Shown here one piece after another: positions 12,375 through 35,430 of a stretch of 64,000 nucleotides of DNA. The notes below the pieces were generated by a model. That model worked only from the letters and a program-made list of their open reading frames with translations, did no database searches and was not told the DNA's origin. The position numbers and the translations under genes are program-made. Position 1 is the stretch's first letter, and each line of letters opens with the position of its first letter. The stretch comes from Bacteroides ovatus (lineage in GTDB: Bacteria; Bacteroidota; Bacteroidia; Bacteroidales; Bacteroidaceae). The stretch lies in the NCBI RefSeq assembly GCF_001314995.1, contig NZ_CP012938.1:62001-126000 (forward strand), given 5' to 3'.

Positions 12375-12451
12375 GTTGTATCCTTGGGAGGCGTGAGCTT
12401 TATCCCGGCTTATAAAAGGGATGAAACCAGAGATTAACGTGTTTTATACCG

Positions 12452-12561
12452 CAGCTTTATAAAAATTAGACGGTGCGTTACGACTCATTAAACGCTGCGT
12501 TAGGAGAAGTTGAAGCCTTTGTTAGGTAAAATCAGAGCCTTTGTTTCGGAATAAACAAAGT
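12452..12561. repeat. Intergenic array of five degenerate 22-nt tandem units (array 1)
   Basis: Units lie at 12452-12473, 12474-12495, 12496-12517, 12518-12539 and 12540-12561. Aligned with no gaps, positions 5 and 6 (TT) and 19 (A) are invariant, position 4 is G in four of five, and units 2-3 start TGCGTTA while units 4-5 start TTTGTT. Unit 4 holds GTTAGGTAAA, which also occurs in the second array near 34740. No function is known to me. Confidence 0.7.
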
Positions 12562-20870: not shown

Positions 20871-23294
20871 TTATTCGATAAAGAAAGTGGTGGAAACTGT
20901 GTTGCCTTCTCCGTCTACTGCCGTCAGGGAATGTTTGCCGGGAGCAGGTTGCAGGGAAATTTTGTGGAAATCCTGTGTCTGTGTCTGATAGGTGTCGTCG
21001 AGATGCCAGAAGATAGTGGCATTGGGATTGCTGTGTGCCAGTTCCACCGTGATAAAGCCTTTGCTGCCATCCAGTTGCTTGGGCAGCTTGATGTGGGCGT
21101 TCATCGGAGGGTAGATGAACTGCATGGGTTGGAAAGAATCTTCTCCGCAGCCGGCTTTGAAAGGTGGCAGCGGTTTATATTCCGGATGGTGTTGTTTATA
21201 GTACCATTCCCATACGGGCGGCAGGGCAAACCATGATTTCTGAATGGTAGGTTCCGTGTTTGCACAGTTTTCATAGATGCGGTGGCTTTCGTCGGCGGAT
21301 AGTGTGACGAGATGATGGTAAGGACAAGCCTCTGTCCGTAATCCGACGGGAAGGATCAGTACGGTGTCGGTTTCTTCACAGAAACGTCCTTTCAGATGAC
21401 CGGATTGACGGCATATCTCTGCATCAACAAAAATTCCTGTGGGACGTTCAAACCAGGGTGAAGATGGGAGATAATTGAATATATCGAATAATACGGGACC
21501 GGCTGTCTGTGCACCGACCAATCCGGGTTTTCCTTCTCCGGTTGCATTTCCTACCCATACGCCTACTGCATAGCGGGGAGTCACGCCAACGGCCCAGGCA
21601 TCACGGAATCCGTAACTCGTTCCGGTCTTCCATGCGATAGTCTGCATCGAGGGGATTGATTTCCAGTCAATTTCTTCAGGGCGGTTGACTTCTGTTAAGG
21701 CGGAAAGGGTGAGCCAGGCCGCTCCTGCCGAAATGACTCCTTCTGAAATAACTCCTTCTGATATATCCTTTCTCGAAGTTGTTTTTCTTGAAATGGTCTT
21801 TCCTGAAGTAACTTTTCTTGAACCATCTCTTTCCGAAACTGTCTTTTCTTCTGTTCCCAGTAGTATCTGCACTTCCTTTTCTTGGGGAAGGTCGTTGGAA
21901 TGACTGTTGGAGAGGCTTCGTCCCATTTGTGCATAAGCATTCGTCACATCCCATAAAGTAGCTTCGGCACCTCCTAAAATGAGTGATAATCCATAATGGG
22001 AGGCTGATCGGTTGATAGTCTTGAACCCCATTTGTTGCAGCATGTGATGAAATTTGGGTACTCCATATCTTTGTAACATGGTGACAGCCGGGATATTCAA
22101 TGAGCGGGCAAGAGCTTCGGAAGCGGGGACGGCTCCTTCAAACTGCAGGCTGAAGTTTTGTGGAGTAAAGCCGTTGATATTAACGGGTACGTCCGGTAAC
22201 AGCATTTGCGGTAATAGACTTCCCTCCTGTAGCATGGCACCATAGAGAAAGGGTTTTAAAATACTGCCTGTACTTCTGGGAGCTTGAATCACGTCTACTT
22301 GATTCCCCCCTTGCTTACGGTCGAAATGTACATTTCCGCAGTATGCTACCACTTGATTGGTGGGAATGTCTATAATTAGGATAGCCAGGTTACGGATATC
22401 ACTTCGATTAAATTCATTGCTCCACCGTTCCGCCAAACTCTCTATATGGGTTTGTATTCCTTTATCGATGGTTGAGCGGGTATATAATCCGTTTCTTTCT
22501 TGATAAAAGCGGGTAACCAGGTGGGGGGCTATTTGAGGAAGAGGATGTGGTTCGTCGGGTAACGGTTCGCTGATAGCCAATTCATAGGTGGACGCATCAA
22601 TAATCTCTTCTTCAAAAAGTTGTTTCAATAAACGGTTGCGTTTGGAAAGTAGTGTTTTTCGTCCTTTGGATAGATGAATCATGGCGGGGGCATTGGGCAG
22701 GACGGCCAGCATGGCTGATTCCGCCCATGATAAATCTTCGGCAGAATGACCGAAGTAGCGCCAGGCAGCAGCATCCAGTCCTACTACATTTCCTCCGAAT
22801 GGTGCATGGGAGACATACATGGATAAGATTTCCTCTTTGGAAGTCCGAAACTCCAAACGGGTAGCCCAGATCATTTCGATGACTTTCTCTCCGATAGTTC
22901 TGGGTTTGTTCCGGGCGAGACGGATGGTCTGCATGGTAAGGGTACTGCCTCCGCTTACAACACGTTTATTCTTTAAATTCTGATAGAGTGCTCTTCCGGT
23001 AGATAGCGGATTAACTCCCCAATGGTGGTAAAAGTGTTTATCTTCGAAGGTAATAAGACATTGCTTGATTTTTTCAGGTGTTGTCTTTCGGGGAGGAAAC
23101 CGCCATTGACCATCCGAAGCGATACGTGCTCCCAGTAATTCTTCGTTTCGATCAGTCACAACGGTGGAGTAGGGTACATGAAACAGTTGCCGGGGAAGGC
23201 AAAAGATGTATCCTATCATCAAAAGAGCAATGCTTATTGTCATTACTTTCTTAGTAACAGATAATCGTTTGAAGAATTTATATATAGGATTCAT
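20871..23294 (-). CDS. pbpC: Penicillin-binding protein 1C (bifunctional glycosyltransferase/transpeptidase)
   Basis: The 807-residue product has one N-terminal membrane anchor, a GT51 transglycosylase domain (FEDKHFYHHWGVNP, GGSTLTMQTIRL, EEILSMYVSHAPFGGN), a transpeptidase domain with SILK (Ser about 344), SLN (about 403) and KTG (about 553), and the C-terminal BiPBP_C domain (about 715-807) that is diagnostic for PBP1C. It polymerises lipid II at the inner membrane. An in-frame array of eight pentapeptides (residues 483-522) is inserted between SLN and KTG. It starts 14 bp after the alpha-2-macroglobulin stop; this pairing is conserved in proteobacteria. Confidence 0.92.
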   Translation of the reverse strand: MNPIYKFFKRLSVTKKVMTISIALLMIGYIFCLPRQLFHVPYSTVVTDRNEELLGARIASDGQWRFPPRKTTPEKIKQCLITFEDKHFYHHWGVNPLSTGRALYQNLKNKRVVSGGSTLTMQTIRLARNKPRTIGEKVIEMIWATRLEFRTSKEEILSMYVSHAPFGGNVVGLDAAAWRYFGHSAEDLSWAESAMLAVLPNAPAMIHLSKGRKTLLSKRNRLLKQLFEEEIIDASTYELAISEPLPDEPHPLPQIAPHLVTRFYQERNGLYTRSTIDKGIQTHIESLAERWSNEFNRSDIRNLAILIIDIPTNQVVAYCGNVHFDRKQGGNQVDVIQAPRSTGSILKPFLYGAMLQEGSLLPQMLLPDVPVNINGFTPQNFSLQFEGAVPASEALARSLNIPAVTMLQRYGVPKFHHMLQQMGFKTINRSASHYGLSLILGGAEATLWDVTNAYAQMGRSLSNSHSNDLPQEKEVQILLGTEEKTVSERDGSRKVTSGKTISRKTTSRKDISEGVISEGVISAGAAWLTLSALTEVNRPEEIDWKSIPSMQTIAWKTGTSYGFRDAWAVGVTPRYAVGVWVGNATGEGKPGLVGAQTAGPVLFDIFNYLPSSPWFERPTGIFVDAEICRQSGHLKGRFCEETDTVLILPVGLRTEACPYHHLVTLSADESHRIYENCANTEPTIQKSWFALPPVWEWYYKQHHPEYKPLPPFKAGCGEDSFQPMQFIYPPMNAHIKLPKQLDGSKGFITVELAHSNPNATIFWHLDDTYQTQTQDFHKISLQPAPGKHSLTAVDGEGNTVSTTFFIE
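21729..21848 (-). repeat. Eight in-frame 15-bp tandem repeats inside pbpC
   Basis: Exactly 120 bp, eight units of 15 nt, encoding pentapeptides of the form (E/R/G)(K/G)xxS: EKTVS, ERDGS, RKVTS, GKTIS, RKTTS, RKDIS, EGVIS, EGVIS. Units are divergent at the DNA level yet keep phase and frame; the last two peptides are identical. A tract of this kind can change copy number without frameshift. Confidence 0.9.
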
Positions 23295-33923: not shown

Positions 33924-34328
33924 ATGGAACTGAATCAAGTAGATATACATTATTTAATAGCGGCAATTTGCGTTATTTCATCTGCACTTATTTTTTATAC
34001 GATAGGTGTTTGGGGAGAACGTCTTCAAAGGAAATTAAAGTTTTGGCATCTCATTTTCTTTCTTCTCGGGTTGTTGGCTGATACGGTGGGTACAAGCCTG
34101 ATGGAGCATATTGCCGAACTGACTCATCTGCATGACGAAATGCATACGGTGACAGGGGCAATTGCTATTCTTCTGATGTTTGTACATGCGTTATGGGCGA
34201 TATGGACCTATGTGAAGGGAACGCCTATAGAAAAGAGACATTTTAATCGTTTCAGCATTGTAGTTTGGTGCATTTGGCTTATACCTTATTTAATAGGGGT
34301 TTATTTGGGGATGCGATTACACGTATAG
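33924..34328 (+). CDS. HsmA/TIGR03987-type small membrane protein
   Basis: Start set at the ATG at 33924 (MELNQVDIHY), giving 134 residues; the longer frame from 33867 adds a poor N-terminus. Four hydrophobic segments alternate with conserved His: WHLIFFLLGLLADTVGTSLMEHIAELTHLHDEMHTVTGAIAILLMFVHALWAIW. The histidines in EHI, HLHDE and HALW are suggestive of metal or heme binding. The family (TIGR03987/HsmA) is a small membrane protein of unknown role, sometimes near heme or oxidative-stress genes; that link is not visible here. Confidence 0.75.
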   Translation: MELNQVDIHYLIAAICVISSALIFYTIGVWGERLQRKLKFWHLIFFLLGLLADTVGTSLMEHIAELTHLHDEMHTVTGAIAILLMFVHALWAIWTYVKGTPIEKRHFNRFSIVVWCIWLIPYLIGVYLGMRLHV

Positions 34329-34520
34329 GATTAGGCAGCAGATAAATAGGGGGAGAGGGATTATTCCGCTAAAAGCTTACGTTATTTAGTTCAAAAGGAT
34401 ACAAAAATGAGGGTGTTCGGAGAGGGGTGTACAAAGCGCTGAAACGCCCACCAGTAAAGGGGGAAAAGCCAATGAAAACCAGTAGAGTAGAGAAGAGAAG
34501 AGTAAAGAAGAGTAAGTAAA

Positions 34521-34556
34521 AGTATTATTTCTGTTATAAACAACAGCAATAATACT
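34521..34556. repeat. Imperfect 15-bp hairpin in a non-coding region
   Basis: AGTATTATT/AATAATACT and CTGTT/AACAG pair (34521-34535 with 34542-34556), with one mismatch and a 6-nt loop. No T tract follows, so it is not a standard terminator. Confidence 0.6.
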
Positions 34557-34643
34557 GGGCAGAGAAGATGGCTTTGGATGCTGCCGTTGTCGGTTCGGAT
34601 CACTTCGTCGGTACCGTTTCTGTTCCCGTGTCCCTCATGAACT

Positions 34644-34753
34644 GTTCGTCCGGCAGATGACCGACTTTTGTCTGGTAGGTTGTTGATGCTCGCCCGGTAG
34701 GTAACGGACATTCACACGGTAGATAACCTACGTTTGTACGTTAGGTAAATTCA
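34644..34753. repeat. Intergenic array of five degenerate 22-nt tandem units (array 2)
   Basis: Units at 34644-34665, 34666-34687, 34688-34709, 34710-34731 and 34732-34753 align without gaps. T3, G9, A12, G13 and T15 are invariant, and the majority sequence is GTTCGTCCGGTAGGTAAC plus GGAC. A weaker partial unit precedes at 34622. The last unit has GTTAGGTAAA, also found in array 1 near 12521. Confidence 0.8.
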
Positions 34754-34929
34754 ATATTATTTCACGGGCTACCGTTTCAATACTTGTTTGCTAAAGTATC
34801 ATTTGCTTCAAAACCGTACCGGAAGGAATGAAACGGATTGATAATTGTTTTTAGTAAGATTGTAGGCGTATCATTATTAGATATGGGATTAAAGTTGTAA
34901 CTTTGTTGCTTCAAATATTAAATGAAGAT

Positions 34930-35430
34930 ATGATCGAAGTTTTAGAGTCTGCTTTACAGAAGGCTGCGGGTGAAGGAATGGATGAATTTATCCAAGCGTT
35001 TACAGATAAATATAAAGAGATTGTCGGTGGCGAACTAACTGCCGAAACAATGCCTCTGCTGACAGGAGAACAACATTCTTTGCTGGCATATCAGATTTTT
35101 CGTGATGAAATAATGGTTGGTGGATTTTGCCAATTAATTCAGAATGGCTATGGTGGCTATATCTTTGATAATCCGTTTGCGAAAGTGATGCGTTTGTGGG
35201 GAGCGGAAGAATTCTCTAAATTAGTTTATAAGGCTAAGAAAATCTTTGATTCCAACCGGAAAGACTTGGAAAAGGAACGGACGAATGATGAATTTATGGC
35301 TATGTATGAGCAATATGAAGCTTTTGATGAATTGGAAGAGACTTATTTGGAGACAGAAGAGCAAGTAACAGCATTGATTGCGAGTTACGTAGATGAACAT
35401 TTGGAACTTTTTGCAAAAATAATAAAGTAA
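34930..35430 (+). CDS. DMP19/DUF4375-like acidic protein
   Basis: Start set at the ATG at 34930 (MIEVLESALQ), giving 166 residues; the TTG at 34903 would add an unlikely leader. The sequence is strongly acidic (many Glu/Asp), helical, and shows the DUF4375 features LTGEQHSLLAYQIFRDEIMVGGFCQLIQNGYGGYIFDNPFAKVM. DMP19 of Neisseria, the founding member, is a DNA mimic that blocks a repressor; whether this homologue acts so is not known. It is the first gene after the 22-nt array. Confidence 0.72.
   Translation: MIEVLESALQKAAGEGMDEFIQAFTDKYKEIVGGELTAETMPLLTGEQHSLLAYQIFRDEIMVGGFCQLIQNGYGGYIFDNPFAKVMRLWGAEEFSKLVYKAKKIFDSNRKDLEKERTNDEFMAMYEQYEAFDELEETYLETEEQVTALIASYVDEHLELFAKIIK

Follow-up and report, generated by a model that had tools for sequence, protein, structure and literature searches.

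Non-coding DNA of a 6.47-Mb single-contig Bacteroides genome carries many short tandem arrays with one fixed step of 22 bp. The arrays form several sequence classes, they are associated with two kinds of gene (HU-wHTH and Lin1244), and one and the same gene can be preceded by different classes in different species. We propose, with a probability of about 0.6, that every class consists of predicted sites for one particular dimeric protein and that a body common to these proteins sets the pitch. Two of the arrays lie in the window, which is the 64-kb stretch analysed here (C1:62001-126000).

The array at 34644 and its neighbours

A sequence-only reading of the window had described positions 34644-34753 as five 22-nt units that align without gaps, with T3, G9, A12, G13 and T15 invariant, between genes for a small membrane protein and a DMP19-like protein. 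The units, the invariant positions and the neighbours were all confirmed. The features are as follows.

12452..12561, plus strand: first array of the earlier reading, with the same 22-nt pitch; its sequence is unlike that of the 34644 array and it matched no gene-linked class
33924..34328, plus strand: 5′ neighbour, an HsmA family (membrane) protein (TIGR03987)
34644..34753, plus strand: period-22 array; its five 22-nt units are degenerate and share their sequence class with the array after the intact Lin1244 gene at 0.585 Mb
34930..35430, plus strand: 3′ neighbour, a DMP19-like protein (PF14300), the upstream region of which was compared between genomes

At a lag of 22, 51 of the 88 compared positions match in the 34644 array. 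Within the 64 kb, scores of at least 51 at this lag are given only by array starts at 12434-12466 and 34642-34648. The period survived a null model: the score of 51 was reached in none of 60 block dinucleotide shuffles of the window (highest 48), the statistic being the maximum over lags 21-23. When lags 10-60 were scanned, lag 15 exceeded lag 22 in the window (58, with its best place at 21722), and two 15-nt tandem arrays were seen side by side at 21722-21807. Tandem Repeats Finder, when run on the window, reported neither the 34644 nor the 12452 array.

It had also been suggested that the two arrays of the window share a core, the 10-mer GTTAGGTAAA. This 10-mer has two plus-strand occurrences in the window, at the places claimed. 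As evidence of kinship it fails: the similarity of the 12452 and 34644 arrays, compared in all rotations and on both strands, is just 7.8, and unrelated HU-linked arrays score about 8.9 among themselves. Thus, the window arrays are no more alike than by chance, and the 10-mer was rejected as a family core.

A relic of a Lin1244 locus

The 34644 array is contained in a longer element with the following features.

34398..34782, plus strand: relic element that contains the array; another copy, 86% identical along the whole element, is at C1:187650-188019 (minus strand)
34402..34482, plus strand: remnant of a Lin1244/DUF4373 gene, codons 116-142 (tblastn, E 5.5e-4; blastn, 81% over 34393-34543)
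34481..34520, plus strand: purine-rich tract of 5/15-nt repeats within the gene-matching stretch (repeat listing and comparison with the gene)
34521..34556, no strand: inverted repeat with 15-nt arms that are 93% complementary, at the end of the gene-matching stretch
34773..34839, no strand: flank repeat, parts of which recur at C1:5495221-5495281 and C1:2888570-2888608, two loci with 22-nt arrays (L005 and L007)

Within positions 34398-34782, a locus near 0.585 Mb (L045) is also matched, in two separate parts. This locus has an intact 325-aa gene with the Lin1244_N (PF14297) and DUF7833 domains, the product of which matches a PHROG family of 'replication initiation protein' (PHROG 2562, E 1e-10). 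An array lies 10 bp past this gene; it is of the same class as the window array, but cleaner, and is followed by genes for a primase-helicase, a DUF4248 protein, an HU-HIG protein and an amidase. The surroundings resemble a polysaccharide locus, and the B. ovatus counterpart carries that annotation. The intact locus is also present in B. xylanisolvens XB1A and B. ovatus: the array has six units in XB1A and five here and in B. ovatus, a difference of exactly 22 bp. Among the gene-linked classes of its own genome, the window array is best matched by that of the Lin1244 locus Lin_L052 (13.06).

In the window remnant, no match was found to the N-terminal part or the DUF7833 part of the Lin1244 gene. 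Because the window keeps a gene fragment, the purine tract, the inverted repeat and the array, the window array is a remnant of the locus that is intact at 0.585 Mb; it is possibly without function. With four candidates scored per genome, the relic was matched in 18 of the 149 genomes searched, our genome included; in the other 17 of these only parts matched. At another locus, L047 (C1:1452000-1470000), a shortened Lin1244-like frame holds a different 22-nt array.

Abundance, fixed pitch and variable sequence

In 864 kb of sampled genome, 30 non-coding period-22 arrays were found. The first 464 kb, composed of the window and 400 kb of near-evenly spaced stretches, contained 13 of them (12 without the window), compared with four arrays of period 44 and at most one of any other period. 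The second 400 kb contained 17, compared with nine of period 44 and at most three of any other. Extrapolation gives a total of about 200-225 arrays in the genome. When the non-coding segments of the 800 kb of sampled stretches were counted, 27 of 262 were positive at period 22; the next non-harmonic period gave three, and shuffles gave 0 of 1310. No period-22 array was found in the 150 kb of E. coli K-12 that was scanned.

The positions of 29 arrays relative to flanking genes showed no significant orientation bias. Convergent gaps contained 8 of the 29, against 15% of the intergenic length (p 0.07), and divergent gaps also contained eight, against 32% (p 0.70). It should be mentioned that this test used mechanical ORF calls, which next to the window array include a spurious ORF on the minus strand, and that three further arrays had no flanking pair. 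Because the bias was not significant, a promoter or terminator position for the arrays was rejected.

Two classes with known arrays, selected for that reason, were searched for in the whole genome with the gap left free. For class 1 (ATAGYGWCRCTAT plus a half-unit, gap 8-10), the gap was 9 in every one of 27 matches, which lie at 14 sites, and class 2 (pairs of ACTATAGT, gap 11-17) gave 18 matches at seven sites, all with a gap of 14. The pitch was therefore 22 in 27 of 27 and 18 of 18 free-gap matches. Reversed-pattern controls gave no match genome-wide for either class. Because these searches required exact matches, the site counts are lower bounds. The ATAGTGACGCTAT array is of a Lin1244-linked class. 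Class 1 does not fit a CRISPR array: the space between its 13-bp cores is 9 nt, in contrast to the unique spacers of about 30 nt between constant CRISPR repeats.

The DMP19 gene allowed a comparison between species. In the 30 best-matching of the 84 genomes with this gene, a period-22 array was present upstream in nine, our genome included, and these arrays had about six unrelated sequences (L194 and L199 were borderline in the grouping, at 11.8). Both HsmA and DMP19 were found in eight of the 30 genomes, and five of these eight comparable gaps contained an array, with four unrelated classes. For the rest of the 30 genomes the scan reached at most 1.4 kb upstream, and the region covered there may belong to a different gap. 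Thus, different array classes precede the same DMP19 gene in different species. The sequence-only reading had offered the period in orthologous gaps as a check: the DMP19-upstream array is there in nine of the 30 genomes and absent, at the threshold used, in 21. One class, GTTTC...GAAAC, recurred at L252, L255, L257 and L262 (pair similarity 15-17); it had no match among the compared gene-linked classes of this genome.

That the arrays are a family which keeps spacing rather than sequence was the central idea of the earlier reading. It holds genome-wide, upstream of DMP19 and at the Lin1244 loci of other genomes (see below). The fixed pitch stands; the opposition to sequence must be softened, since the arrays form sequence classes, some of which are tied to a gene for a DNA-binding protein that has an array of that class upstream.

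Arrays at Lin1244 loci

A period-22 array was found in the flanks of 46 of 93 Lin1244 loci, where at least 38 of 66 matches were required in the 700 bp before or the 350 bp after the gene and N was excluded. The best other non-harmonic period was found at five loci, the harmonic period 44 at 20, and shuffles gave 0 of 1860. The loci were taken from our genome and from others of a 60-genome sample, and since some are orthologs they are not independent. From 110 Lin1244 matches, 94 were scanned (the 16 left out were mostly weak or partial), and L148, which had no ORF call, was removed to give 93. The unit sequences vary widely from one Lin1244 locus to another. In phage and plasmid records with Lin1244 relatives, three of 16 stretches contained an array, all of them from Bacteroidales plasmid records; no period-22 array was present in the stretches from L149, a Bacteroides phage, and L150, a plasmid of B. 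thetaiotaomicron. Two records filed as Bacteroides plasmids, L163 (NZ_CP081918.1) and L164 (NZ_OY725916.1), carry polysaccharide-type genes, Lin1244 cassettes and 22-nt arrays.

Many Lin1244 genes (for example, L090, L060, L073 and L150) also contain in-frame 21-nt direct repeats at about nucleotides 380-550. By eye, there are often three or four repeats, followed by an A/purine-rich tract with a period of 5-10 nt. At lag 21, 30 of the 93 genes reach 28 of 44 matches. Similar in-gene repeats were seen in one Bacteroides phage and one plasmid of B. thetaiotaomicron. This period of 21 is a separate coding feature, distinct from the period-22 arrays. In phage lambda, the replication origin lies inside the initiator gene, O. 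By analogy, the in-gene 21-nt repeats and the purine tract look like a candidate in-gene origin.

These loci bear on an explanation that we consider unlikely, namely that the arrays are replication iterons of phage-like modules lodged in the chromosome (a Lin1244 initiator with a primase-helicase, or HU with BT4734-like genes) and that orphan arrays were left behind when such modules decayed. Iterons commonly have a pitch near 22 bp, the array of L045 sits between the gene for the PHROG 2562 relative and that for the primase-helicase, and the window copy is a gene relic in which the array and the in-gene repeat tract were retained. However, 12 orphan sites of class 1 lie away from the five Lin1244 genes of this genome, and an informal look noted no gene remnant beside them. 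Moreover, the HsmA-DMP19 gap of L194 is only 233 bp, much of which is array. The in-gene 21-nt set and A/purine-rich tract of many Lin1244 genes are more origin-like than the arrays, and two Bacteroides phage and plasmid members have the in-gene repeats and lack an array outside the gene. The plain iteron explanation is weakened by this separate in-gene set of many Lin1244 genes and by the location of most sampled arrays away from such genes.

Arrays upstream of HU-wHTH genes

The genome has 34 matches to PF18291 (HU-HIG). In this and other genomes, an array was present just upstream of 41 of 44 HU-wHTH genes and of 0 of 21 other HU-HIG genes. The cut-off was at least 36 of 66 matches, and 39 of the HU-wHTH genes reach 38 or more. 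Proteins were assigned to the HU-wHTH group if they had at least 195 aa and no EAPDPAA tail, a rule that was set after the array scores were known. There were 71 HU-HIG loci: three had no ORF call (L278, L299 and L303) and three were removed because of wrong ORFs (L273, L280 and L281), which leaves 44 and 21. L281, which was thus set aside, has an array scoring 51. One set of 20 loci was chosen by ORF length among the matches listed. In other genera of the order, an array was found at five of 11 scanned HU-HIG loci (L315, 47; L316, 53; L325, 38 and partly in the gene; L326, 48; L327, 40), and the loci without an array mostly encode short proteins. These 11 come from 13 new order-level loci, after removal of L320 (no ORF) and L319 (own genus); L328-L343 lie outside this set.

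By Pfam, the array-linked proteins are HU-HIG and HU, and they have an HU domain followed by a putative C-terminal winged helix. In an AF2 model (mean pLDDT 80, pTM 0.43), the HU fold is followed by helix-helix-helix-strand-strand (helices 137-150, 156-163 and 167-179; strands 183-185 and 194-196), and the pLDDT of this block is 77-94. The PDB fold matches of the model were HU and IHF, and winged-helix profile matches were weak (Z-alpha, E 0.025; HTH_24, E 0.087). The predicted wing rests on the order of the elements in the model and these weak matches.

Array similarity tracks protein similarity (Mantel test, 4 of 2000 permutations). HU-wHTH pairs with a wHTH identity of at least 0.7 have an array similarity of 13-14, compared with about 9. 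The correlation is weak both for the wHTH (rho 0.17) and for the HU part (rho 0.19). Because the HU part does as well as the wHTH, the correlation does not single out the domain that reads the class. Common descent of gene and flank may be behind it.

After removal of two arrays at HU-wHTH genes, 22 of 30 sampled arrays were closer to a gene-linked class found in the genome they come from than to random classes of other genomes (p 1.7e-4). A strong match (at least 13) was found in seven of the 30, and most have none. Examples of such matches, besides the window array with the Lin1244 gene at 0.585 Mb, are as follows.

L175: sampled array that matches the HU gene at 4.40 Mb
L167 and L246: sampled arrays that match the Lin1244 genes L050 and L051

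The neighbourhoods of some HU-wHTH genes were also observed. The HU-wHTH genes of L226 and L227 are near-identical; both have the same array, and a transposase-like gene (DDE_Tnp_1, as shown for L227) is divergent from each of them. In L216, L219 and L224, the HU-wHTH gene is divergent from a BT4734-like gene (PF08800 for L216; the others by sequence likeness), and in L216 and L219 the arrays lie between the two genes.

Dispersal in the manner of REP or MITE repeats, in which the arrays are copied as short non-coding elements and have no role for the host, is in our view quite unlikely. The 385-bp relic is present twice in the genome with partial matches in 17 others, the two classes recur at 14 and seven sites, and the class that precedes a given gene differs between species, all of which copying could produce. 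However, copying explains neither the single pitch in unrelated sequences nor the arrays upstream of 41 of 44 HU-wHTH genes.

Unit symmetry and proposed mechanism

Inverted-repeat units exceeded the 95% level of the null in 32 of 39 HU arrays, 32 of 46 Lin1244 arrays and 17 of 30 other arrays; the units of the window array are not palindromic (score 8.8). Changes in the arms were one-sided in 620 cases and two-sided in 76 (59 are expected if changes are independent), and 31 of the two-sided changes were complementary. Because the changes are mostly one-sided, dimer sites on DNA fit better than RNA hairpins. That the arrays act as RNA elements, tandem hairpins in transcripts that serve as terminators or stabilisers, agrees with the frequent inverted repeats but is hardly credible and was rejected, because few arm changes are complementary, the window array folds no better than its shuffles (z +0.54) and Rfam has no match in the window.

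Our preferred reading, in which each class is bound by its own dimeric protein, can be put as a mechanism. Each sequence class would be read by its own dimeric DNA-binding protein, for which the HU-wHTH paralogs are the clearest case. A pair of wHTH domains would read the inverted repeat in each unit, and the common HU body would set the 22-bp step, which is about two helical turns. Neighbouring dimers would be aligned on one face of the DNA and thereby form a regular nucleoprotein patch. An array at the protein's own gene would give autoregulation, and orphan arrays would act at a distance, as bound patches with an effect on chromosome structure or expression nearby. The window copy is a decayed member of a Lin1244-linked class: the array and the in-gene repeat tract are kept, and the gene is largely lost. 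In this way, we infer protein binding, a filament and a function of the arrays. If this reading holds, the genome has many array sites that are read by histone-like paralogs with switchable specificity and one fixed step. The organisation or regulation of bacterial chromosomes would thereby gain a new layer, partly tied to capsule and phage-like loci. Because the HU-wHTH proteins adjoin their predicted targets, the reading is readily testable.

Distribution of the classes on the chromosome

From the GC skew of the samples, a noisy measure, the terminus was placed roughly at 0.75-0.94 Mb and the origin at 3.9-4.1 Mb. Class 1, with 14 sites, has a mean position of 0.66 Mb (Rayleigh p 1e-4; p 2e-4 without the two Lin1244 sites), and none of its sites lies between 2.14 and 5.20 Mb. 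The seven sites of class 2 have a mean position of 3.93 Mb, which is not significant alone (Rayleigh p 0.27). The two classes differ in their distance to the terminus (p 2.6e-4; below 6e-4 for a terminus set at 0.5-1.1 Mb). Among 45 arrays, similar ones are nearer to each other than random (p 0.022). By eye and with mechanical ORFs, six of 12 class-1 orphans are in convergent gaps and four of six class-2 orphans are in divergent gaps.

The terminus bias could be caused by accessory DNA near the terminus or by local spread from the gene. A further idea, which we regard as speculative and would not expect to hold, is an address code: HU-wHTH and Lin1244-linked paralogs would mark their own chromosome territories through private classes of 22-bp pitch, and at a given intergenic position one species could have exchanged its class for that of another, with no change of the ruler. 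If this were true, one class would mark the region around the terminus and another the origin half.

Comparison with known systems

The HU-HIG family (PF18291) comprises HU fused to a wHTH, an Ig or a glycine-rich motif, and the array-linked proteins are members of it. The HU-wHTH fusion itself is already known. Burroughs et al. 2017 is reportedly the source paper for the HU-HIG clades. In open-access titles and the starts of abstracts, among the matches listed, we found neither a link between HU-HIG proteins and arrays nor 22-bp arrays in Bacteroides; an earlier description of either may exist.

Where they lie at Lin1244 loci (46 of 93), the arrays resemble iterons in having tandem units of fixed pitch (about two helical turns) beside an initiator-like gene. 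They differ in that there are about 225 arrays per genome (extrapolated) in many classes, and most sampled ones are away from Lin1244 genes. REP/BIME elements and their RAYT proteins offer another comparison: these repeats are extragenic, often palindromic and of several classes per genome, with the protein gene beside its own class. The arrays are likewise extragenic palindromes in many copies (all are non-coding and 17 of 30 sampled arrays are palindromic). In contrast, they have a fixed tandem pitch of 22 bp and the linked gene is an HU-wHTH gene or a Lin1244 locus; at the classes with a linked gene, a RAYT transposase was not found in that place. The matS sites are single sites that are confined to the terminus region and bound by MatP. 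The sites of class 1 cluster near the terminus and contain a 13-bp palindrome, and those of class 2 do not cluster there. Our arrays differ from matS in that they are tandem, of several classes and linked to Lin1244 genes. Finally, TAACTGA direct repeats are reported from Beggiatoaceae, with many intergenic sets in one genome and one fixed sequence (PMC4679880). The two systems are alike in having many intergenic direct-repeat sets per genome, and they differ in that the arrays described here keep the pitch and vary the sequence.
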